This document shows, one piece after another, positions 2,785-28,624 of a stretch of DNA of 64,000 nucleotides. The stretch's first letter is position 1. Every line of letters begins with the position of its first letter. The position numbers and the translations under genes were made by a program. This DNA is from Lachnospiraceae bacterium NE2001 (GTDB taxonomy: Bacteria > Bacillota > Clostridia > Lachnospirales > Lachnospiraceae). Below the pieces are notes generated by a model. That model worked only from the letters and a program-made list of their open reading frames with translations. It ran no database searches and was not told where the DNA came from. The DNA is taken from NCBI GenBank assembly GCA_900110635.1, contig FOEK01000002.1:1-64000 (forward strand), read 5' to 3'.

Positions 2785-3036
2785 GTTTATGGTTGTGGCT
2801 CTATTTTGGCTCTAAAAAATCTGAGAGCCACCAAACATATTTCAAAATATGATTACAAGAGCCCTAAAATAGGATGAACAGAAATACAATTATATGACAG
2901 ATTCGATAATAGCAATCGAACTCCTTTGATTTTCTGCAGAAAATGGTTTCGGCTCATCTCTTTATATGACAGCTGATCGACACTCTACTGGAAAGTTTTG
3001 TGTTATGAATTATGCTGTCGATGGAAAATAAAGTGC
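2785..3036. other. Non-coding gap between relic gene and T-box promoter
   Basis: No gene is visible here. The stretch holds two copies of GGCTCT and an AGAGCC that could pair with either, and a TATATGACAG direct repeat (near 2892 and 2966). Nothing further can be assigned. Confidence 0.4.
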
Positions 3037-3066
3037 TTGACAGCCGGTATTGGATTGTGGTATCTT
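3037..3066 (+). promoter_or_regulatory. Sigma-A promoter of the T-box operon
   Basis: A consensus -35 TTGACA (3037-3042) is followed after 18 bases by TATCTT (3061-3066). This places the RNA start near 3073, upstream of the T-box leader. Confidence 0.65.
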
Positions 3067-3094
3067 AGTTGCACGGCTAATTTTATAAACATCA

Positions 3095-3394
3095 AATGCG
3101 TTGATGGGGAATAGTAAGTGTAGAGGATGCCTGCTGCAAACGTGGTGATGCAGCGAAGAGAACTGTCGGGTGGTGCAAGACAGAGGATAGTCACACCGAA
3201 CTCGCCCTTGAGCAGATCGGGTGAAATAACAGTAGTCCGATTCGGAGCCCTACCGTTACAGAGGGAAGATATGAGTACTGTATGATCAGTTCCGTGTCGA
3301 TGAGTGCGTGTGATGATAATTCACACGAAGTAGAGTGGTACCGCGTGATTCACGTCTCTACAAACCGTTGGTTTGTGGAGACGTTTTATTTTTT
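3095..3394 (+). promoter_or_regulatory. T-box riboswitch, probable tRNA-Leu specificity
   Basis: This is a classical T-box leader. The stem I apical region reads AGAGAA, CTGTC, GGGTGGTG, GACAG (3154-3182). The triplet CTC follows the conserved GAA (about 3198-3203) where the specifier codon is normally found, which points to tRNA-Leu. The T-box sequence TGGTACCGCG is at 3336-3345, inside an antiterminator closed by GTAGAG / CTCTAC. The competing terminator follows: GTCTC-ACAAACC paired with GGTTTGT-GAGAC (3354-3382), then a U-rich tail. Uncharged tRNA should favour antitermination and expression of the genes from 3432. The T-box call is certain from its motifs; the amino acid is read by eye and not by folding. 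Confidence 0.92.
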
Positions 3395-3431
3395 CCTACT
3401 TACGTTATAATATTTTTAGAGGAGAAGTCAA

Positions 3432-4826
3432 ATGAGAAAAATTGATTATTCAGACAAGACGTTGAAGAATTCACGTATCGGGCTTAGCTTTCGTGAGAAA
3501 GTTGAGATCGCAAGGTATCTTGATCGTCTAGAAATCGAAGCTATTGAGTTACCGGTGATAGAAAATCTACAGGTTGACAGTCTGCTGGTTAAGTCCATTG
3601 CGGCAGCGCTCTCAAATGCTGTACTTACCATAGATGTCGGTTGGACAGAAGAAGGAATAGATATAGCGTGGGCTGCAATAGAGAATGCGCTGAAGAAGCG
3701 CCTGCAGGTCGTTATTCCCGTAAGTGCAGTACAGATGGAATATAAGGTTCATAAGAAGCCGCCTGTAGTTCTTACATTAATAGATACTCTTGTAAAGAAA
3801 TGCAAGACTCTTTGTGATGATGTGGAATTTGTGGCAGAAGACGCGACAAGAGCCGAAAGAGAATATCTTAAGGAAGCAATAGAGACAGCAATCAATGCCG
3901 GAGCAACTAAGATTACGGTAAATGATGATGCGGGAACTATGATGCCTCCAGAGTCTGCTGAATTTATCGGATATGTTAAGGAAATCGTAAACGGAAGAGC
4001 TGCTCTCGGAGCGGGAACATCCAATTCACTTGGTATGGCTGATATTTGCGCTGTTGAATCTGTAATTGCAGGAGCTGACAGACTTAGTGTTGCGGTTTAT
4101 GGAGATTCGGCAGATATTCAGGGAGTTACAAGGATACTTCTTGGATGTTCTGAAAAATGCGGAGCCCAGCCAAATGTAAAGAATACCGAACTGCAACGTA
4201 ATTGTGATTTTATCTGCCGCATGAATAATACTGATTATGATAAAAGAACTCCGTTTGATGCAGGAGTAAGAGCTAAGGATGAATTTAATATCGGAGAGCT
4301 TGGAGTGGGCGATGACATCAGCGTTGTGGCTGAAGCAGTGAATAAGCTTGGTTATGACCTGTCCGAGGAAGATATGAAAAATGTTTACGAGAAGGTAAAC
4401 AGGGAAGCTGCAAAGAAGAATATAACAGCAAGAGATCTGGATGCTATAGTTGCCAGTACAGCACTTCAGGTACCGCCGACATATGAACTTGCAAGCTATG
4501 TAATTAATTCGGGAAATATAATATCTGCAACAGCCAATATTTCACTGAAGTATAATGGTGAAGTTTTATCGGGAGTGAGCATAGGAGACGGACCGATAGA
4601 TGCTGCATTTCTTGCAATGGAAGGAATCATCGGACATCATTATGAACTGGATGATTTTCAGATAGATGCTGTAACTGAAGGCAGAGAAGCATTGGGTGAA
4701 GCACTGATACGTCTTCGCGCCGATAACGGAAGATTATATTCGGGAAGAGGAATATCAACGGATATAATCGGAGCAAGTATCAGAGGTTATATCAATGCGC
4801 TCAACAAGATCGTATTTGAACAGTAA
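3432..4826 (+). CDS. LeuA-like (isopropylmalate synthase family) protein lacking metal ligands
   Basis: A 464-residue DRE-TIM metallolyase-fold protein with a C-terminal LeuA dimer-type domain. The family signature VEFxxEDATR is present (131-140), as is the end of the dimer domain (STDIIGASIRGYINALN, 442-458). The usual DTTLRDG start is DKTLKNS (8-14), so the catalytic Arg and metal-binding Asp are K12 and N13. The usual HxHND motif is G-T-S-N-S (195-199), so both histidine ligands are lost. Classical isopropylmalate, citramalate or homocitrate synthase activity is therefore doubtful. It lies behind the leucine-type T-box and 19 bases before the ligase fusion. From memory, similar LeuA-like proteins with altered ligands occur in other Lachnospiraceae, often near such ligases. 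ATG 3432 follows AGAGGAG. Confidence 0.85.
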   Translation: MRKIDYSDKTLKNSRIGLSFREKVEIARYLDRLEIEAIELPVIENLQVDSLLVKSIAAALSNAVLTIDVGWTEEGIDIAWAAIENALKKRLQVVIPVSAVQMEYKVHKKPPVVLTLIDTLVKKCKTLCDDVEFVAEDATRAEREYLKEAIETAINAGATKITVNDDAGTMMPPESAEFIGYVKEIVNGRAALGAGTSNSLGMADICAVESVIAGADRLSVAVYGDSADIQGVTRILLGCSEKCGAQPNVKNTELQRNCDFICRMNNTDYDKRTPFDAGVRAKDEFNIGELGVGDDISVVAEAVNKLGYDLSEEDMKNVYEKVNREAAKKNITARDLDAIVASTALQVPPTYELASYVINSGNIISATANISLKYNGEVLSGVSIGDGPIDAAFLAMEGIIGHHYELDDFQIDAVTEGREALGEALIRLRADNGRLYSGRGISTDIIGASIRGYINALNKIVFEQ

Positions 4827-4845
4827 TAAGATTCGGAGGTAATAT

Positions 4846-7332
4846 ATGAGACTTTCATTTTCTACGCACGGCTGGTGCGATAAAGAGTGGGATTTTCTGG
4901 TTGAGTCAGCTGCGATCAACGGTATTTCAGGTATTGAAATAGCAAGTGACCAATGTGATGTATATTCACAGGACGGAGGTCCATTTCATAAATATAATAT
5001 TACGGCAACTATCAGAGATTTAAGAGAAAAAGGTATTGCTGTGGCAGTGCTTAACTCGGGATGCGATATGGCATCCGCTGCCCTTTCCGTAAAGGCTGAG
5101 GAGGAAATCATTTCCAGAATAAAGCTTGCACAGTCCCTTTCGGTAAAATATGTTATTTTATTCGGCGCTAAGGGAGGAAGCGTTGATATTTCCAGAAGCG
5201 TGATAAGTAAGGTTCTTCCCGAAGCAAGAAAAAGAGGTATAACCCTTCTGGTAAAAACCAGCGGAATGTATTCAAATACAGCACTTCTGAAGGAACTGCT
5301 TGATGGATTTGCTTGTGATGATCTCGGAGCCAGCTGGAACATATATGCTCCGTATCGTGAGTTTAATGAAGATCCACAGACAACTATCCAGAATCTGGGT
5401 GCATATGTAAGACATGTACATGTATGTGATTCCAAGGAATCCCATGGTGACTTAAAGCATGCACTTGTAGGTGAGGGAGATCTGCCTATACCTGAGATGA
5501 TGACAGCTCTTGCTTCTATAAATTATGATGGTTTCATGTCACTCAGATGGGATCCTTTATGGATTCCGGGACTTGATGATCTTGATGTTATTCTGACACA
5601 TTATGCTGCAACAATGAGCAGATACGGAAATACTGCCAGAAAGAAATCATATCTTTATGACAACAGAAGCCATACAGGAAATTATATATGGAAACATGAT
5701 GATCTTATAGACCTGACCTTCGGTCAGCTGCTTGATAAGGTGGTTGAGGAGTTTCCAGATCAGATAGCATTTAAGTATACAACACTGGATTATACCAAGA
5801 CCTATAAGCAGTTCAGGGATGATGTTGATAAATTTGCCAAGACTCTTCTTTCACTTGGAGTAAGACCGGGAAAGCAGGTTGCCATATGGGCAACTAATGT
5901 GCCTCAGTGGTTTATTACCTTCTGGGCAGTAACCAAGATAGGCGCCGTACTTGTTTCTGTAAATACTGCTTATAAGATACATGAGATAGAATATCTGTTA
6001 AAGCAGAGTGATACTCATACACTGGTAATGATAGACGGTTGGAGAGATTCAGACTACCTTGCTACCATGAAGGAGCTTTGTCCTGAGATGAATGATATTA
6101 AACCGGGTGAACAGCTTCATTCCAAGAGACTGCCTTTCCTTCGCAATATCATTACAGTAGACTGCAGACTTCCGGGATGTCTGACCTGGGAGGAGTCGCT
6201 GCTTAGAGCAGAAAGTGTTCCAAATGAGGAACTTCAGAGGTATGCAGCAGCCGTTGATAAAAATGATGTCTGCAACATGCAGTACACCAGCGGCACCACC
6301 GGATTTCCAAAGGGTGTAATGCTTACCCATTATAATGTAGTAAATAACGGTAAATATATCGGAGATCATATGGATCTGTCTACTGCTGACCGTATGATGA
6401 TACAGGTTCCTATGTTCCATTGCTTCGGAATGGTTCTTTCAATGACAGCGGGCATGACCCACGGAACAACTATATATCCGCTTCCGTATTTTTCACCAAA
6501 GCCTGCCCTTGAGTGTGTTCATAAGGAGAGGATTACGACCTTTAACGGTGTTCCGACTATGTTTATAGCAATGAGTCAGCATCCTGATTTTGAAAAGACT
6601 GATTTTTCATCTGTCAGAACCGGTATCATGGCAGGATCCAACTGTCCTGCAGAACTTATGAAGCAGGTTTCCGAGATAATGAATATGAAGGAAATAGTAA
6701 GTGTATACGGTCAGACCGAGTCAAGTCCGGGAGATACTATGAGCAGCTACTATGATCCGCTTGATGTTCGTACTGATACGGTAGGTTCGGCATTTGCAAA
6801 TGTGGAATGCAAGATCGTAGATCCTGAAACAGGAGAGGATTGTCCTGTAGGTGTTGACGGAGAATTCGTTGCAAGAGGTTATAATATCATGAAGGGATAT
6901 TATAAGATGCCAAAAGCAACGGCAGAAACCATTGATAAGGACGGATGGCTTCATACCGGAGATCTTGCAAAGATGGACGAGAACGGAAATTACTATATCA
7001 CAGGACGTCTTAAGGATATGATAATCCGAGGCGGTGAAAATATCTATCCTAAGGAAATAGAAGAATTCATTTATACTCATCCGGGTGTAAAGGATGTACA
7101 GGTTATCGGTGTTCCGGACAAGAGAATGGGTGAGGAGATAATGGCCTGCATAATCTTAAAAGAGGATGCGACCGTTACTGTTGAGGAAATGAAGGAATTC
7201 ATAACAGCCTCTATTGCTCGTCACAAGGTTCCAAGATATATTGAGTTCATGGATGAATTCCCAATGAATGCAGCAGGAAAGATTCTAAAATATAAAATGA
7301 GAGAAGATGCAGCAAAGCGCTTAGGCCTTTGA
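4846..7332 (+). CDS. Fusion: xylose-isomerase-like TIM barrel + acyl-CoA ligase
   Basis: An 828-residue two-domain protein. Residues 1 to about 265 form a xylose-isomerase-like TIM barrel (AP-endonuclease family 2). It keeps HVHVCD (H192), but the positions normally carrying metal ligands are K137 (in LLVKTSG), N165 (in WNIYAPYR) and R234 (in SLRWDP). Residues about 285-828 form an AMP-dependent acyl-CoA synthetase with an apparently intact active site: YTSGTTGFPKG (480-490), YGQTE, HTGDLA, GRLKDMIIRGGENIYPKE and the C-terminal catalytic lysine region AAGKILKYK. The ligase half should make an acyl-AMP and then acyl-CoA; the acid is unknown. GGAGG precedes ATG 4846, 19 bases after the LeuA-like gene. 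The barrel may be a binding or scaffold domain. The catalytic state of the barrel is inferred from motifs only. Confidence 0.88.
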   Translation: MRLSFSTHGWCDKEWDFLVESAAINGISGIEIASDQCDVYSQDGGPFHKYNITATIRDLREKGIAVAVLNSGCDMASAALSVKAEEEIISRIKLAQSLSVKYVILFGAKGGSVDISRSVISKVLPEARKRGITLLVKTSGMYSNTALLKELLDGFACDDLGASWNIYAPYREFNEDPQTTIQNLGAYVRHVHVCDSKESHGDLKHALVGEGDLPIPEMMTALASINYDGFMSLRWDPLWIPGLDDLDVILTHYAATMSRYGNTARKKSYLYDNRSHTGNYIWKHDDLIDLTFGQLLDKVVEEFPDQIAFKYTTLDYTKTYKQFRDDVDKFAKTLLSLGVRPGKQVAIWATNVPQWFITFWAVTKIGAVLVSVNTAYKIHEIEYLLKQSDTHTLVMIDGWRDSDYLATMKELCPEMNDIKPGEQLHSKRLPFLRNIITVDCRLPGCLTWEESLLRAESVPNEELQRYAAAVDKNDVCNMQYTSGTTGFPKGVMLTHYNVVNNGKYIGDHMDLSTADRMMIQVPMFHCFGMVLSMTAGMTHGTTIYPLPYFSPKPALECVHKERITTFNGVPTMFIAMSQHPDFEKTDFSSVRTGIMAGSNCPAELMKQVSEIMNMKEIVSVYGQTESSPGDTMSSYYDPLDVRTDTVGSAFANVECKIVDPETGEDCPVGVDGEFVARGYNIMKGYYKMPKATAETIDKDGWLHTGDLAKMDENGNYYITGRLKDMIIRGGENIYPKEIEEFIYTHPGVKDVQVIGVPDKRMGEEIMACIILKEDATVTVEEMKEFITASIARHKVPRYIEFMDEFPMNAAGKILKYKMREDAAKRLGL

Positions 7333-7367
7333 TGTAAAGTATTCGAAATAGAAAGAAGGGAAGATAA

Positions 7368-10300
7368 ATGTCTTTTAATGAATTTAAACCGGGTGAGATG
7401 GTTACTATGGATGGAAATGAGGCAGCGGCTTTTGTTGCATATCATTTCTCAGAGATAGCGGCAATATATCCGATAACTCCGTCGAGCCCTATGGCTGAAT
7501 ATACAGATGAATGGTCAGCTAAAGGAAAATTGAACCGTTACGGACAGACTGTAAGTCTTGTTGAAATGCAGTCTGAAGCAGGAGCCATTGGTGCTGTTCA
7601 CGGAGCAGTAACATCAGGCGCATTTGCTACAAGCTTTACAAGTTCACAGGGTCTTATGCTTATGATACCTGTGCTTCATAGAATTTCAGGAGAGAGACTC
7701 CCTGCAGTACTTCATGTTGCTGCCAGAACAGTAGGAACTCACGGAATGAGTATATTCGGAGATCATTCTGATGTAATGAATTGTCGTCAGACCGGATTTG
7801 CGCAGCTCTGTTCATCTTCTGTTCAGGAGGTTATGGACATAGCCGCTGTTGCACATCTTGCTGCAGTGAAGTCCAGCATACCGTTTATGCACTTCTTTGA
7901 TGGATTTCGTACCAGTCATGAGCTGGCAAAGGTTGAAGTTATAGATTATGAGAAGCTTGACAGCCTGGTTGATGAGGACGCTGTAAGACGTTTCAGAGAG
8001 AATGCTCTTAATCCGGAGCATCCTATGCTTAGAAATACAGTACAGAACGGAGATGTATATTTCCAGACAAGAGAAGCAAATAATACGGATTATGCAAATC
8101 TTCCGGATGTTGTTGAATCTTATCTTGAAGGTATCTCAAAGATAACAGGAAGAGAGTATCACACATTTAATTATTACGGAGCACCTGACGCGGACAGAGT
8201 TATAGTAGCTATGGGTTCGGTTGCAGGCGCAATATGTGAAACTGTCGATGCCCTTAATGCGGCAGGAGAGAAGGTCGGATTCGTAAATGTACATCTGTAT
8301 CGTCCGTTCTCAATTAAGCATTTCCTTAATGCAATGCCGAAGACTGTTAAGAAGATTGCAGTACTTGATCGTTGTAAGGAAATGGGAAGTGCAGGAGAGC
8401 CTCTTTTCCAGGATGTCTGCACAGCTTATACAAATAAAGAGTCTGGTGTTGTAATTGTAGGTGGCAGATATGGTCTTTCATCCAAGGATACAAGACCTGA
8501 CCATATAGCTGCTGTATATACAAATCTCAATCAGGATGAGCCAAAGAATTCATTTACAATCGGTATTGAAGATGATGTAACTCATCTCAGCCTTCCTATC
8601 GTGAAGGGCGCTGTAAAGAGACCAAAGCATATAACAGCATGTAAATTCTGGGGACTCGGAAGTGACGGAACAGTAGGTGCCAACAAAAACTCGGTTGACA
8701 TCATTAATTCGGCAACAAATAAATATGCTCAGGCATATTTTGAATATGATGCCAAGAAATCTTTCGGTGTTACAAAGTCACATCTTAAGTTTTCGGATAA
8801 GCCTATTAAGGGAAGCTATCTTGTTCATTCAGCAGATTTCGTTGCATGCTCAACGCAGCAGTTCATACTTGATTATGACATAGTGGATGATATCAAGGAG
8901 GGCGGAAGCTTCCTTCTTAATACAGGATGGACTCCTGAAGAGCTGAATGTGATGCTTCCTGCTAAGGTTCGTCGTATTCTCGCTGAAAAGAATATAAACT
9001 TTTATACGATAGATGCTACAGATATAGCTCTCGAGCTGGAGCTTGGCCAGCATACAAATGTCATACTTCAGGCAGCATTCTTTGCTATAGCAGGTATAAT
9101 ACCAATAGAGGAAGCTGCTGAGTATATGAAGGATGCCGTTAAGAAAACATATTTCAAAAAGGGTGAAACAATAGTAGGAAGAAATATTGCTGCTATTGAA
9201 AAAGGACTTAGCGGATTCACTAAGGTGGAAATTCCTGCAGACTGGATAAATGCAGCAGATGAAGAGACTGAAAAGAAAGATGACCGTCCGGATGTTGTTA
9301 AAAACATTCTGGAACCGCTTAATAAGCAGAAGGGTGATGAACTTCCAGTATCCGCATTTATCGACAGACAGAATGGTGCCATTGAAATGGGACTTACAGC
9401 ATTTGAGAAAAGAAATATTGCTGTTCAGGTTCCTGTATGGGATGCAACTAAATGTGTACAGTGTAACAGATGTTCAATGGTATGCTCACATGCAGTTTTA
9501 AGACCGTACCTTTTAAATGAGGAAGAAGCCAAGGCTGCTCCTGAAGAAGTTGTTATGGTCGATGCAAAGGGTAAGGGCGTTGAAGATATGAAATATACAC
9601 TTCAGTGCAGTACCGCAGACTGTACCGGTTGCCAGAGCTGTGTAAACAACTGTCCTACCGGTGCGCTTACTATGCAGCCTGTTCCTGAGGTTGATCTTAC
9701 ATCATGGAATTACTGTCTTGGTCTTGATGATAAGCCGGACTTCTTTGATCCATATTCAGTTAAGGGAAGCCAGTTTAGACGTCCGCTCCTCGAGTTCTCG
9801 GCTGCATGTGCAGGTTGTGGTGAGACAGTATATGCAAAACTCATGACACAGCTTTTCGGAGATCGTTGTTACTGGGCAAACGGAACCGGATGTTCACAGG
9901 CATGGGGAGCACCAATGCCGGGAATTCCTTATACAGTTAATAAAAAAGGCCATGGCGTTGCATGGGGCAACAGCTTGTTTGAGAATAATGCCGAGTATAG
10001 TCTTGGTATGTATCTCGCAATAAAGCAGCAAAGAGAAACAGAGAAGCTTCGTACTGAAAAACTTCTTGAAGTAACAGAAAATGAGGCACTTAAAGAGGCT
10101 GCTAATAACTGGATCAGTCTCTATGATGATTTTGATGCTTCCGTAAAGGCAAGCAATGACTATATGGCTGCTTTGGAGGATTCTCTTAAGCAGGGATGTT
10201 CTAAAGAAGAATCAGATATCATTAATGAGATTCTTAAGGCAAAGGATCAGCTTACCAAGAAAACCTTCTGGATGTATGGTGGAGACGGCTGGGCATATGA

Positions 10301-10898
10301 TATAGGCTTCGGAGGTCTTGACCATGTAATAGCATCGGGTGAAGATATAAATGTATTCGTTATTGATACAGAAGTTTATTCCAATACCGGAGGACAGTCC
10401 AGTAAGGCTACACCTCTGGGAGCAGTTGCAAAGTTTGCATCCAGCGGAAAGAAATCGCCAAAGAAGGATCTTGGATCGATGCTTATGACCTACGGAAATG
10501 TATATGTAGCGCAGGTTGCCATGGGTGCAAGTCCGGAGCAGCTCCTTAAGGCATTTAAAGAGGCAATGGCTCACAAGGGACCATCTGTAATCGTTGCCTA
10601 CACACCATGTACTGCACATGGAATGAAGTGTGGTATGGGCGGAGCTCAGCAGGAGATGAAGAGAGCGGTTCAGGCAGGCTACTGGCTGCTTTGGAGATAC
10701 AATCCTGAAACCGGCGAAATGCATCTTGATTCTAAGGAACCGGATACACCGCTTGAGGAATTCCTTGACGGTGAAGTTCGTTATAATCTTCTTAAGAGAA
10801 CATTCCCGGAGAATGCAAAAGAGCTTTTCAAAAAGAGTACAGATAGAGCAAAAGAGAGATACGAGAAATTCCTTGGAATGTCTACGGATCATAAATAA
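7368..10898 (+). CDS. nifJ: Pyruvate:ferredoxin (flavodoxin) oxidoreductase
   Basis: A one-polypeptide PFOR of 1176 residues, the usual length. It converts pyruvate and CoA to acetyl-CoA, CO2 and reduced ferredoxin in the cytoplasm, the main pyruvate-oxidising step of clostridial fermentation. Visible in order: the N-terminal pyrimidine-binding domain (YPITPSSPMAE), a CoA-binding region, a ferredoxin domain with two 4Fe-4S motifs (CVQCNRCSMVC near 694 and CTGCQSCVNNCP near 755), and the thiamine diphosphate domain. The last carries CAGCGE near 815 and GDGWAYDIGFGG near 972, with a proximal cluster. It starts 35 bases after the ligase fusion with no terminator between, so it may share the T-box transcript. 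A second promoter in the gap cannot be excluded. Confidence 0.97.
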   Translation: MSFNEFKPGEMVTMDGNEAAAFVAYHFSEIAAIYPITPSSPMAEYTDEWSAKGKLNRYGQTVSLVEMQSEAGAIGAVHGAVTSGAFATSFTSSQGLMLMIPVLHRISGERLPAVLHVAARTVGTHGMSIFGDHSDVMNCRQTGFAQLCSSSVQEVMDIAAVAHLAAVKSSIPFMHFFDGFRTSHELAKVEVIDYEKLDSLVDEDAVRRFRENALNPEHPMLRNTVQNGDVYFQTREANNTDYANLPDVVESYLEGISKITGREYHTFNYYGAPDADRVIVAMGSVAGAICETVDALNAAGEKVGFVNVHLYRPFSIKHFLNAMPKTVKKIAVLDRCKEMGSAGEPLFQDVCTAYTNKESGVVIVGGRYGLSSKDTRPDHIAAVYTNLNQDEPKNSFTIGIEDDVTHLSLPIVKGAVKRPKHITACKFWGLGSDGTVGANKNSVDIINSATNKYAQAYFEYDAKKSFGVTKSHLKFSDKPIKGSYLVHSADFVACSTQQFILDYDIVDDIKEGGSFLLNTGWTPEELNVMLPAKVRRILAEKNINFYTIDATDIALELELGQHTNVILQAAFFAIAGIIPIEEAAEYMKDAVKKTYFKKGETIVGRNIAAIEKGLSGFTKVEIPADWINAADEETEKKDDRPDVVKNILEPLNKQKGDELPVSAFIDRQNGAIEMGLTAFEKRNIAVQVPVWDATKCVQCNRCSMVCSHAVLRPYLLNEEEAKAAPEEVVMVDAKGKGVEDMKYTLQCSTADCTGCQSCVNNCPTGALTMQPVPEVDLTSWNYCLGLDDKPDFFDPYSVKGSQFRRPLLEFSAACAGCGETVYAKLMTQLFGDRCYWANGTGCSQAWGAPMPGIPYTVNKKGHGVAWGNSLFENNAEYSLGMYLAIKQQRETEKLRTEKLLEVTENEALKEAANNWISLYDDFDASVKASNDYMAALEDSLKQGCSKEESDIINEILKAKDQLTKKTFWMYGGDGWAYDIGFGGLDHVIASGEDINVFVIDTEVYSNTGGQSSKATPLGAVAKFASSGKKSPKKDLGSMLMTYGNVYVAQVAMGASPEQLLKAFKEAMAHKGPSVIVAYTPCTAHGMKCGMGGAQQEMKRAVQAGYWLLWRYNPETGEMHLDSKEPDTPLEEFLDGEVRYNLLKRTFPENAKELFKKSTDRAKERYEKFLGMSTDHK

Positions 10899-10914
10899 AA
10901 AGAATATGAATTAT

Positions 10915-10958
10915 AAGACCTTGTATCATCTTTTTTTGGTGATATGAGGTCTTTTTTT
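10915..10958 (+). terminator. Rho-independent terminator after nifJ
   Basis: AAGACCT pairs with AGGTCTT, extended by ATCA(T)C / GGTGAT around a T-rich loop, and is followed by a run of seven T. It ends the presumed three-gene operon. Confidence 0.85.
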
Positions 10959-26415: not shown

Positions 26416-27459
26416 TCATTCTGATGCTAGCTTTGCTTTTCTTTTTCTGATCTGAGCATAGAATGCATTTATGATCCCATCCACGTCTTTTGCTTTGATA
26501 AGCTCTGGAATCCTTCGATCATTGTCATCGTGCTTCTGGTGATACTTATGTATATTTTTTTGCAGATCCTGATCGTCGACTATTATTTCGATGGCGTTCT
26601 TTAACTCACTATCGATATTGCCAAGGGTTTCTGATAATAAGCATAGTCTGAACATTGTCCAGATAGCATACTCGCAGTAGTTAAAGGCCAGAATATCGTC
26701 GACATCACATCCCTTAAGGGCTTTTTCAAATGCTGCTGCTTCCTTCTTCCATAGCAGTGGCTGTTTTATATGCCAGGCACTGGCATAATTCTCCTGGCCA
26801 AAATGATAATAACGATACATTACCTTTTTGGTTATATATATAGAACTGCACTGGGCCATGTAGCTTATGACATAGGGGATATCCTCTATGGCACGCATGC
26901 TCTCATCAAAATATATGCTTTGTTCCTTTATCACAGAAGCCTTATATAGCTTGTTCCATACTGTCCAGAACCATCTATAGGATTTAGGGTCATCAGCATA
27001 TTCCGTCAGAAGTTTCAGCACATTTTCCCTTCCCTGAATCACTTCATCAGGGGTATCCGTGTTTATAACCAGTGTTTCTGTTCCATATCCATCTATCCAG
27101 GAGGTATTTCCTATAACCAGATCATAGCTTCCGGAACTGGCTATTTTATATAGATGCTCCAGTGAGTCGTCGTTTATCTCGTCGTCAATATCTGAGAAAT
27201 ATATATATTCTCCGGTGGCCATCTTGATTCCTGAGTTTCTGGCGGCAGATTGTCCGGCATTTTCCTGGTGAAAAACACTTATTGGGAATGTCGATGCAGA
27301 ATCTGCAGCTTTATCAAGCAGGGCCGCTGATCCGTCCTTGGATCCATCATCAATAAAGATAACCTCGAAGCTGTCAAAGCTTTGTCTGTTTAGACTGTTA
27401 AGGAATCTTTCTATATATTTATCTCCGTTATATACGGGTACAATTACTGATATTTTCAT
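26416..27459 (-). CDS. Family 2 glycosyltransferase
   Basis: A 347-residue GT-A fold protein. The start ISVIVPVYNGDKYIERFLNSL, FIDDGSKDGS, QENAGQSAARNSGI and the metal-binding FSDIDDE (DxD) are typical of GT2 enzymes that add sugars to surface polysaccharides or glycoproteins. The C-terminal half carries ED in MRAIEDIPYV, a probable catalytic base region. No membrane segment is seen. With gmhA, gmhB and hldE nearby, a heptose-containing glycan is a reasonable but unproven product. Confidence 0.88.
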   Translation of the reverse strand: MKISVIVPVYNGDKYIERFLNSLNRQSFDSFEVIFIDDGSKDGSAALLDKAADSASTFPISVFHQENAGQSAARNSGIKMATGEYIYFSDIDDEINDDSLEHLYKIASSGSYDLVIGNTSWIDGYGTETLVINTDTPDEVIQGRENVLKLLTEYADDPKSYRWFWTVWNKLYKASVIKEQSIYFDESMRAIEDIPYVISYMAQCSSIYITKKVMYRYYHFGQENYASAWHIKQPLLWKKEAAAFEKALKGCDVDDILAFNYCEYAIWTMFRLCLLSETLGNIDSELKNAIEIIVDDQDLQKNIHKYHQKHDDNDRRIPELIKAKDVDGIINAFYAQIRKRKAKLASE

Positions 27460-27469
27460 GGTATATACC

Positions 27470-28624
27470 TCATACCTTTTCGTATGGAAGGGGAGCAGCT
27501 ATCTGAATGGCGGCAGGTATTTCCTCTCCATCAAATAGTCTTCCTGAGCAATAATCACAGCTGGCCCAATAAGACCTCTTTAGGAAGTCTTTTAGTATAA
27601 GTCTAGCCTTTTCCCTGTCATCTCCCAGAGAACAGATATCTATATAGTCATCTTCAATATATGGCATAGCCTGTAGGTTCATGGCATTTGCCATAAAAGG
27701 ACAGCGGAAGAACTTGCCATCAAGGATTGTATATAGGTTTTTGGCACAGCAATTAATAAAGGTCTGTTCGATATCTTCCGACGCGCGATTTCTCTTTCTT
27801 ATGTCAGAACACTTTGCCCACATCCCGGCTTCATGAACGTCATAGATGATATGTCTTTCATCAAATGCCTGAATCATCTTGTGGATATTTCGCGATAGGT
27901 CACCGTAATCGGTGATGCAGGCTCCAACCTTTGGAGATGTCATTACGTCCAGCAGGCTGTCCTTTGGAACGATTGTGGCATTTGTATAAAATGTAATCTG
28001 GCGGATATTTTCCAGCTTGATCAATTCGGAAAGAATCTCCTGGACCTGGGTGTGCATAAAGGGCTCTCCACCGATCAGTCTTACCTCGAAGATCTCATCA
28101 AAATAAGATGAAAAAACTGTCATCCAGTGAATCAGATCCGCTGGGGCAAAGTTCTTTGGGTGTTCATAATACTGCATCAGATTGCTGCAGTCTCTGCATC
28201 GCATGGAGCATCGTTCTGTGATCTCCAGATCCACGTTTCGTAGGAAAAGTCTTTCTGGATGTAGATAGGCGTTTTGTTCTGCTATAAAGGCGTCGACCTC
28301 TATATTAGCCATATCCTTTTTCTTGGTTGCATAGTTAATATCAGGCCTCGGGCCGTCAAGTATCTCTGCAGCCAGGATATATTCTTCGCTGTTATCCAGC
28401 TTATTTATGATCTGGCCGCAGTTGGCTATGGCTATGATAAAGGTTCCCTTTATATTTGACTTACGTATCTCTTTTAAAGAAAGAATGGGTACGCCTGTCT
28501 CATAATGATCTCGCTTGATCTCTCTGTCGTCGCAGTAACAGACAACATTCCAGTTTCTGTTTAAACACTCCTGCAGAGCTGCTTCCCCCGTTGGACAGTA
28601 CCCATATATGATATAATCTGACAT
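27470..28624 (-). CDS. Radical SAM protein with N-terminal Rossmann-like domain
   Basis: A 384-residue protein. Residues 1 to about 95 resemble a nucleotide-sugar/CoA-binding-like fold (IIYGYCPTGEAALQECLNRNWNVVCYCDD). Residues about 128-330 form a radical SAM domain with CSMRCRDC (C139, C143, C146) and IGGEPFMH. The C-terminal part has cysteines (INCCAKNLY..FFRCPF and CDYCSG) that could hold a second cluster, as in SPASM/Twitch domains. It probably performs a radical modification of a sugar or peptide in the glycan pathway. It is the first gene of the reverse-strand operon of five. Confidence 0.85.
   Translation of the reverse strand: MSDYIIYGYCPTGEAALQECLNRNWNVVCYCDDREIKRDHYETGVPILSLKEIRKSNIKGTFIIAIANCGQIINKLDNSEEYILAAEILDGPRPDINYATKKKDMANIEVDAFIAEQNAYLHPERLFLRNVDLEITERCSMRCRDCSNLMQYYEHPKNFAPADLIHWMTVFSSYFDEIFEVRLIGGEPFMHTQVQEILSELIKLENIRQITFYTNATIVPKDSLLDVMTSPKVGACITDYGDLSRNIHKMIQAFDERHIIYDVHEAGMWAKCSDIRKRNRASEDIEQTFINCCAKNLYTILDGKFFRCPFMANAMNLQAMPYIEDDYIDICSLGDDREKARLILKDFLKRSYWASCDYCSGRLFDGEEIPAAIQIAAPLPYEKV

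Follow-up and report, generated by a model that had tools for sequence, protein, structure and literature searches.

Rumen bacteria use branched-chain volatile fatty acids as growth factors, and leucine can be obtained by carboxylation of isovalerate, a route that in the available part of PMC7356843 (which cites Allison 1962 and 1966) is biochemical and has no genes named for it; the reverse reaction leading from branched acids to amino acids is described in the accessible part of PMC7709123 (2020) as unproven, if possible through a ferredoxin oxidoreductase. Within the limited literature searched, we recognised no paper that assigns genes to this path. Here we describe an operon in a stretch of 64,000 nucleotides (the window; positions 1 to 64,000, forward strand, of contig FOEK01000002.1, assembly GCA_900110635.1) from Lachnospiraceae bacterium NE2001, in which a leucine T-box leader precedes a LeuA-like gene (ORF 1), a fusion of a TIM barrel with an acyl-CoA ligase (ORF 2, hereafter TIM-ligase), and a variant nifJ-type pyruvate:ferredoxin oxidoreductase (PFOR; ORF 3). 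We favor, at a probability of roughly three in four, the reading that this is an operon induced by leucine starvation that makes leucine from isovalerate by reductive carboxylation. The cluster looks like the missing genetic basis of the rumen pathway described by Allison and co-workers in the 1960s, with which, going by the same partial sources, it shares the overall conversion proposed and the kind of habitat. The genes of the module are not named in the available portions of PMC11304471 or PMC8734291 either.

Under this reading, isovalerate would be converted to isovaleryl-CoA, then to 2-oxoisocaproate, and finally to leucine. That is, accumulating uncharged tRNA-Leu would let the T-box carry transcription past the leader terminator, the ligase part of ORF 2 would form isovaleryl-CoA from isovalerate, the variant PFOR would join isovaleryl-CoA with CO2 and reduced ferredoxin to give 4-methyl-2-oxopentanoate, and an aminotransferase encoded elsewhere would complete leucine, while the LeuA-like protein, through its leucine-binding allosteric domain, would exert feedback control on TIM-ligase. 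In related genomes, MbcS-like cupin-ligases under isoleucine and valine T-boxes would, together with a 2-oxoisovalerate:ferredoxin oxidoreductase (VOR), lead from 2-methylbutyrate to isoleucine and from isobutyrate to valine. We infer isovalerate as the substrate and carboxylation as the direction from sequence, because this is the simplest route to leucine that would use an acyl-CoA ligase, a ferredoxin-dependent 2-oxoacid enzyme and an aminotransferase together, and because there are matching isoleucine and valine arms.

The leucine leader and the linkage of the genes

In T-box leaders, the build-up of uncharged tRNA lets transcription read past a terminator. The leader of the window has all parts of such an element: it matches RF00230 over the full length of the model at positions 3092-3362 of the forward strand, on which the promoter-like site, the terminators and the three genes of the operon also lie (114.7 bits vs. 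a gathering threshold of 93, E 1.3e-24), and the alignment and the leader sequence together place a CTC (leucine) specifier at 3201-3203, in the specifier position of the loop sequence GAA-CTC-GCCCTT-GAGC, and the T-box core TGGTACCGCG, in the antiterminator bulge, at 3336-3345. The antiterminator has a competitor in the leader terminator at 3352-3384 (15 pairs followed by a T-run, -23.1 kcal/mol, z -7.3). An earlier note on this DNA, made from its letters alone, had recognised both the core and the CTC triplet, and the model run recovered each of them in place. To our knowledge, the genes that follow this leader are not a known T-box regulon. Just 5' of the T-box lies a promoter-like site at 3037-3066 (TTGACA-18-TATCTT, with TG before the second hexamer), which is weak by itself, as the consensus scan returned 3 sites vs. 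2.1 expected in shuffled sequences; conservation with relatives begins at about 3024. The three genes are co-directional, with intergenic gaps of 19 and 35 bases, and an end-of-operon terminator of 16 pairs lies 3' of nifJ at 10915-10953. The earlier note, too, had nifJ as the third gene.

To assess how general this arrangement is, we took as loci the best 80 of 538 relatives of ORF 1 in named genomes. TIM-ligase is directly 3' of the LeuA-like gene in 77 of these 80 loci, and in the three exceptions the genes overlap (L120) or the contig ends too soon (L055 and L078); likewise, the 11 loci drawn from the window's order have the TIM part in 11 and the ligase in 10, the remaining one (L012) being cut. 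Where at least 7.5 kb of downstream sequence is available (54 loci), a PFOR (13/54) or VorB (18/54), never both, occurs within 9 kb downstream (31/54 together), and 43 of 77 loci have a PFOR or VorB at some point of the stretch fetched; by our own estimate, from four such loci in the 3.7 Mb of the window genome, the chance of an oxidoreductase locus falling in 20 kb is ~2%. A branched-chain aminotransferase (BCAT) is near the module in 9 of the 54 loci, and the VorB and BCAT examples exceed curated cut-offs. In G448, for instance, the gene row reads VorB-VorA-VorC-BCAT, T-box (CTC), LeuA-like, TIM-ligase. The idea of a conserved system, raised in the earlier note, is close to what this comparison shows.

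The leaders are conserved as well. Of 77 testable loci, 65 have a relaxed T-box core 5' of the LeuA-like gene, vs. 5% of shuffled stretches. Rfam scans of 38 further loci, picked for short length or for the presence of sister ligases, put a T-box at or above gathering directly 5' of the gene in 26 (13/15, 6/7 and 7/16). Automatic reading of the specifier in 60 leaders, that of the window included, gave CTC in 46, CTG in 10 and another triplet in four (i.e., leucine in 56/60), and left eight further leaders unparsed. A second, unblinded reading, which picked among several candidates per leader, found a correctly spaced CTC or CTG in all four non-leucine leaders and in six of the eight unparsed ones; in the remaining two, contig ends leave too little upstream sequence.

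A LeuA-like protein, a fused ligase and a variant PFOR

ORF 1 (3432-4826; 464 aa) shares with LeuA (TIGR00973, PRK00915) the HMGL-like barrel and the LeuA_dimer domain (residues 331-460; PF08502, 107.6 bits), and the LeuA motifs GDGPIDA and GxGxSTD are kept across the LeuA-like family. It differs from LeuA in lacking the metal Asp and His residues and the GIH segment, in scoring under the curated cut-off of every LeuA-type model listed (best 264 bits vs. 532; TIGR00973, 237 bits vs. 599), and in being partnered by a ligase rather than by LeuBCD. Specifically, K12/N13 and G195/S197 occupy the places of R-D and H-x-H in the eight canonical LeuA rows, as the earlier note had pointed out; we take the Asp and HxH to be the divalent-metal ligands of LeuA, and the His of the GIH motif to be catalytic. 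We aligned 92 rows of the family together with 8 canonical LeuA proteins (8 of 18 loci, the other 10 having been omitted because the frame read was too short, with the gene apparently on the opposite strand or cut; some order-level LeuA-like rows are shortened likewise). Among the 86 family rows that span the catalytic columns, neither the Asp nor the first His is ever retained, and the second His is retained once. The GIH segment, present in 7 of 8 canonical rows (GVH in cL028), is an alignment gap in the window protein, L049, L050, L064, L086, G395 and G326, and a GIH string, counted at any place in the row, occurs in 2 of the 92 family rows (L060 and gL009). Even the deepest members seen, G395 and G326 (35-36% identity), share these losses, and both are likewise followed by TIM-ligase; in a tree of 27 LeuA-like and 8 canonical LeuA proteins a branch with support of 100/99 separates the two. 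Since the losses extend to the deepest members and the family forms its own branch, the LeuA-like protein is, to judge from its sequence, an old, family-wide pseudoenzyme that no longer works as LeuA. The idea that it is an active LeuA whose metal site has shifted was rejected at the level of sequence, as the conserved columns show no obvious substitute set of ligands.

Mean conservation in the family is 0.77 for LeuA_dimer vs. 0.56 for the barrel, and the part under the strongest constraint is the predicted leucine-binding one. In view of this conservation and of the lost catalytic residues, the LeuA-like protein is probably the leucine sensor of the ligase, and we lean towards the view that it binds TIM-ligase and controls it by feedback; leucine binding by ORF 1 itself is predicted from the LeuA_dimer motifs. 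If true, this would clearly exemplify the conversion of a biosynthetic enzyme into a sensor.

ORF 2 (4846-7332) consists of an AP_endonuc_2 TIM barrel (aa 22-235) and an AMP-forming ligase (aa 297-812; AMP-binding and AMP-binding_C), and we propose it as an isovaleryl-CoA synthetase. The ligase, judged intact-looking in the earlier note, does carry the AMP-binding signature and the C-terminal domain motifs, and across the family YTSGTTGFPKG and GRLKDMI are present in 73 of 73 rows each, while the C-terminal motif with the catalytic Lys reads NAAGKI in 53, NVAGKI in 10 and NDAGKI in 4 of the 73. The ligase part is better conserved (mean 0.83) than the TIM part (mean 0.56). The latter has K137/N165/H192/R234 in the window where 31 of 73 rows have E/D/H/E, which we take to be the metal ligands of a xylose-isomerase-like barrel, and the K/N/H/R set is confined to 8 rows, the window and seven near relatives. 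Therefore, the earlier description of a TIM barrel without metal ligands fits the window but not the family, unlike the loss of the LeuA metal site, which is family-wide.

ORF 3 (7368-10898) matches TIGR02176 at 1668.7 bits vs. a cut-off of 911 and, like VOR (VorB, PRK07119) and PFOR in general, is a 2-oxoacid:ferredoxin oxidoreductase; both VOR and PFOR are in principle reversible. It keeps the PITPSS and R-x4-H elements but differs from PFOR in having CSQAWG-MPGIPYT for CSSIWG and in belonging to a leucine-controlled operon. The codons of the motif QAWGAPMPGIPYT lie at 9897-9934, where the pyruvate PFORs compared have CSSIWG, among them 6cin and 7plm, as aligned with ORF 3. A second nifJ of the window genome, 52% identical to ORF 3, has CSSIWG too; the Ile of CSSIWG presumably sits at the pyruvate pocket. 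CSQAWG followed by MPGIPYT was found in all 15 operonic PFORs that span the region (7 from the window clade and 8 others; the copy of L044 is cut and stands outside the 15), and an exact DNA pattern for QAWG-MPGIPYT, run against 393 genomes, hit only that of the window and G591, each time inside a LeuA-like operon. We propose that ORF 3 is an isovaleryl-CoA-carboxylating 2-oxoisocaproate synthase, which would make it a possible new carboxylating PFOR.

Sister ligases and leucine genes across genomes

MbcS (NF047394) activates 2-methylbutyrate and isobutyrate, and isovalerate poorly, according to the available part of PMC10026030, and leucine would on that account need a separate ligase. Many LeuA-like operons are adjoined by cupin-ligases, which would share with MbcS the AMP-forming activation of short branched acids. 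The isoleucine example has helix-turn-helix (HTH) and cupin parts N-terminal to the ligase, and the valine example a cupin part; MbcS is the nearest NCBIfam model of the isoleucine example, under its cut-off (435.8 vs. 850), and the extra N-terminal parts and the T-boxes further set the cupin-ligases apart from MbcS. The leucine ligase, for its part, is nearest PRK12583 and is fused to a TIM barrel. The leaders of 39 usable cupin-ligases specify isoleucine (ATC) in 22 cases and valine (GTA/GTC) in 11, with none read in six; three of these were first classed as other because the pattern matched repeatedly, and were then assigned by spacing. Four isoleucine leaders (L053, L102, L100 and L110) and one valine leader (L093) reach the Rfam gathering threshold. 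In the cupin-ligase tree the 11 valine copies fall in one clade of 13 (support 100/100), whose other two members have no readable leader and which holds no isoleucine copy, the isoleucine copies forming the surrounding grade. Hence, going by the tree, the product named by the leader tracks the ligase lineage. The nearest cupin-ligase relative in the window genome (57% identity, 582 aa) is without the cupin part and without a T-box core in its fetched stretch, as expected for a genome that has IlvC and IlvD.

It is about an even call whether all of this forms one three-armed T-box system, in which leucine, isoleucine and valine would be made from isovalerate, 2-methylbutyrate and isobutyrate, with a LeuA-derived sensor in the leucine arm, a cupin module in the other two (plus HTH in the isoleucine example), and a PFOR reshaped into an isovaleryl-CoA carboxylase or a VOR in its place. 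The loci supply candidate genes for all three carboxylation arms, with a built-in readout in that the specifier of the T-box names the product, and could serve as a marker for predicting which bacteria rely on which branched acid.

The window genome (a draft, 99.97% complete) has, besides IlvC and IlvD, the kinds of genes that isovalerate carboxylation would call for, if the substrates are as proposed, namely the ORF 2 ligase, the ORF 3 oxidoreductase and one Aminotran_4 protein (G000 C44). In the same draft genome no LeuB scored above the cut-off, LeuC was not found and no LeuA-grade protein was seen; a PRK03739-type LeuA was absent from the PF00682 search, where it would be expected to appear. 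The candidates rejected for LeuA were a 454-aa nifV/IPMS-like protein (147 bits vs. 517) and other HMGL-like matches nearest to 4-hydroxy-2-oxovalerate aldolase and the oxaloacetate decarboxylase alpha subunit, and for LeuC the sole aconitase-family match, which is PRK11413. The 454-aa protein (G000 C28:64324-65151) is under all cut-offs and, by a resemblance that we presume, may be a Re-citrate synthase.

A class-level draw of 393 genomes included 31 with the LeuA-like gene (29 at >= 40% identity, plus G326 and G395). LeuB exceeded the cut-off in 5 of these 31 vs. 234 of the 362 others (p 2.3e-7), IlvC was found in 6/31 vs. 220/362 (p 1.3e-5), and another LeuA-type match in 2/31 vs. 122/362 (p 1e-3), all p values that ignore relatedness. 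Of the three comparisons, that for LeuA is the weakest, since searching with ORF 1 returned no LeuA from window-family genomes that do have LeuB; LeuB is thus the fairer gene to compare. For single genomes, LeuB was placed over or under the cut-off by E-values, and G615 and G508 were counted as canonical LeuA from 34-36% identity and open frames of 520-522 aa. The earlier note had envisaged a leucine-responsive module for branched acyl-CoA or 2-keto-acids, of unknown chemistry; its first part comes close to the result of our comparison, whereas the chemistry need not stay unknown, as the ligase, the oxidoreductase, the aminotransferase neighbours, the isoleucine and valine T-boxes and the absence of the normal leucine genes fit leucine synthesis from isovalerate by reductive carboxylation.

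Alternative explanations and genomic surroundings

Alternatively, the LeuA-like protein and the TIM barrel might run a new metal-free or re-sited reaction (e.g., one that condenses or isomerises a branched acyl-CoA) with a product other than plain leucine. The invariance of barrel residues (F20, E22, K109, D137, R140 and D165 among others) in 52 aligned members would fit such a reaction, as would the E/D/H/E set that 31 of 73 TIM domains keep, yet the complete loss of the metal Asp, the gapped GIH segment in the relatives shown, the better conservation of the leucine-binding domain over the barrel, and the VOR/PFOR and aminotransferase neighbours make it unlikely. That nifJ is an ordinary pyruvate synthase/oxidoreductase sharing the transcript is quite doubtful: its score far over the TIGR02176 cut-off and its retained PITPSS and R-x4-H elements are what one would see in that case, but the genome already has a second nifJ with CSSIWG, CSQAWG is in all 15 operonic copies that span the region, the longer motif, searched as an exact match in 393 genomes, turned up only in LeuA-like operons (2 hits), and VOR substitutes in other loci.

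Isovaleryl-CoA might also prime branched membrane lipids, with leucine as just the signal, and the available part of PMC10026030 does report such a use of related acids by MbcS of S. aureus. We regard this as very improbable in view of the PFOR/VOR and BCAT neighbours, the parallel isoleucine and valine leaders, and the lack of a LeuB above cut-off in 26 of the 31 genomes. The last point also counts against a reversed module that degrades leucine to isovalerate in a Stickland-like manner, which we consider hardly credible; although related enzyme types are generally known to work both ways, the leader is of a type turned on by uncharged tRNA-Leu, and AMP-forming ligases generally run toward the CoA ester.

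Several observations nonetheless weigh against synthesis of leucine from isovalerate. A T-box core was not found by the relaxed scan in 12 of the 77 testable loci, including L047 of the window clade, both testable Salinivirgaceae, one of two Synergistota, and the Eggerthellaceae locus. Neither PFOR nor VorB lies within 9 kb downstream in 23 of the 54 loci, or anywhere in the fetched stretch in 34 of 77. Further, 7 of the 15 variant PFORs come from the window clade and are 92-98% identical where compared; a pure scaffold role does not explain why 31 of 73 TIM domains keep all four putative ligands; and the substrate of the ligase is unreadable from sequence, the nearest model being a general fatty-acid-CoA ligase. 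The genome counts are tempered by the neglect of relatedness and, for LeuA, are weak given that the ORF 1 search returned none from window-family genomes with LeuB. Finally, G317, G362 and G591 carry LeuB and IlvC together with the module, and G326 and G395 carry LeuB, IlvC and a canonical-type LeuA alongside it; the module is therefore not solely a replacement for the usual genes.

The operon has differing surroundings in close relatives, since near-identity stops at both of its ends: L041, L043 and L048 match the window at 96.8-97.5% from ~3024 to 10904 and not outside (first 12 kb compared; L043 has just 86 bases before the operon match), as if a cassette had moved or the surroundings had been rearranged. 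Among the best 80 of 538 relatives, 36 have titles that point to the gut of a ruminant or horse and 8 have titles with Lachnospiraceae or Blautia, while some titles give Bacteroidota, Synergistota or Eggerthellaceae. The LeuA-like gene was found in 12 of 295 genomes drawn from the window's order, and among these 12 the window genome alone represents its family. The distribution seen here is thus not mainly in Lachnospiraceae, where the earlier note had expected it to be wide. Records titled outside Bacillota that carry the LeuA-like gene comprise L086, L087 and L099 (Salinivirgaceae), L084 and L089 (Synergistes/Synergistaceae) and L097 (Eggerthellaceae), of which L084, L086, L097 and L099 are without a T-box core, L089 has one and L087 is too short; either horizontal transfer or mis-binned contigs could account for them.

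Other genes recur near the module. Downstream, 17 of 54 loci encode an Amidohydro_2 protein (e.g., L057:13098-13907 and L136:6918-7709), and a small CbiA/ParA-like P-loop ATPase accompanies VOR-type loci (19/54; e.g., L063:16597-17259). The window genome has two more split 2-oxoacid:ferredoxin oxidoreductases (G000 C53:39081-42336 and C25:163089-165021), the former ~3 kb from the PRK11413-type hydratase. Elsewhere in the window, a protein with a CxxxCxxC radical-SAM-type motif (27470-28624), recognised by eye, is encoded beside a glycosyltransferase-like gene (26416-27459).

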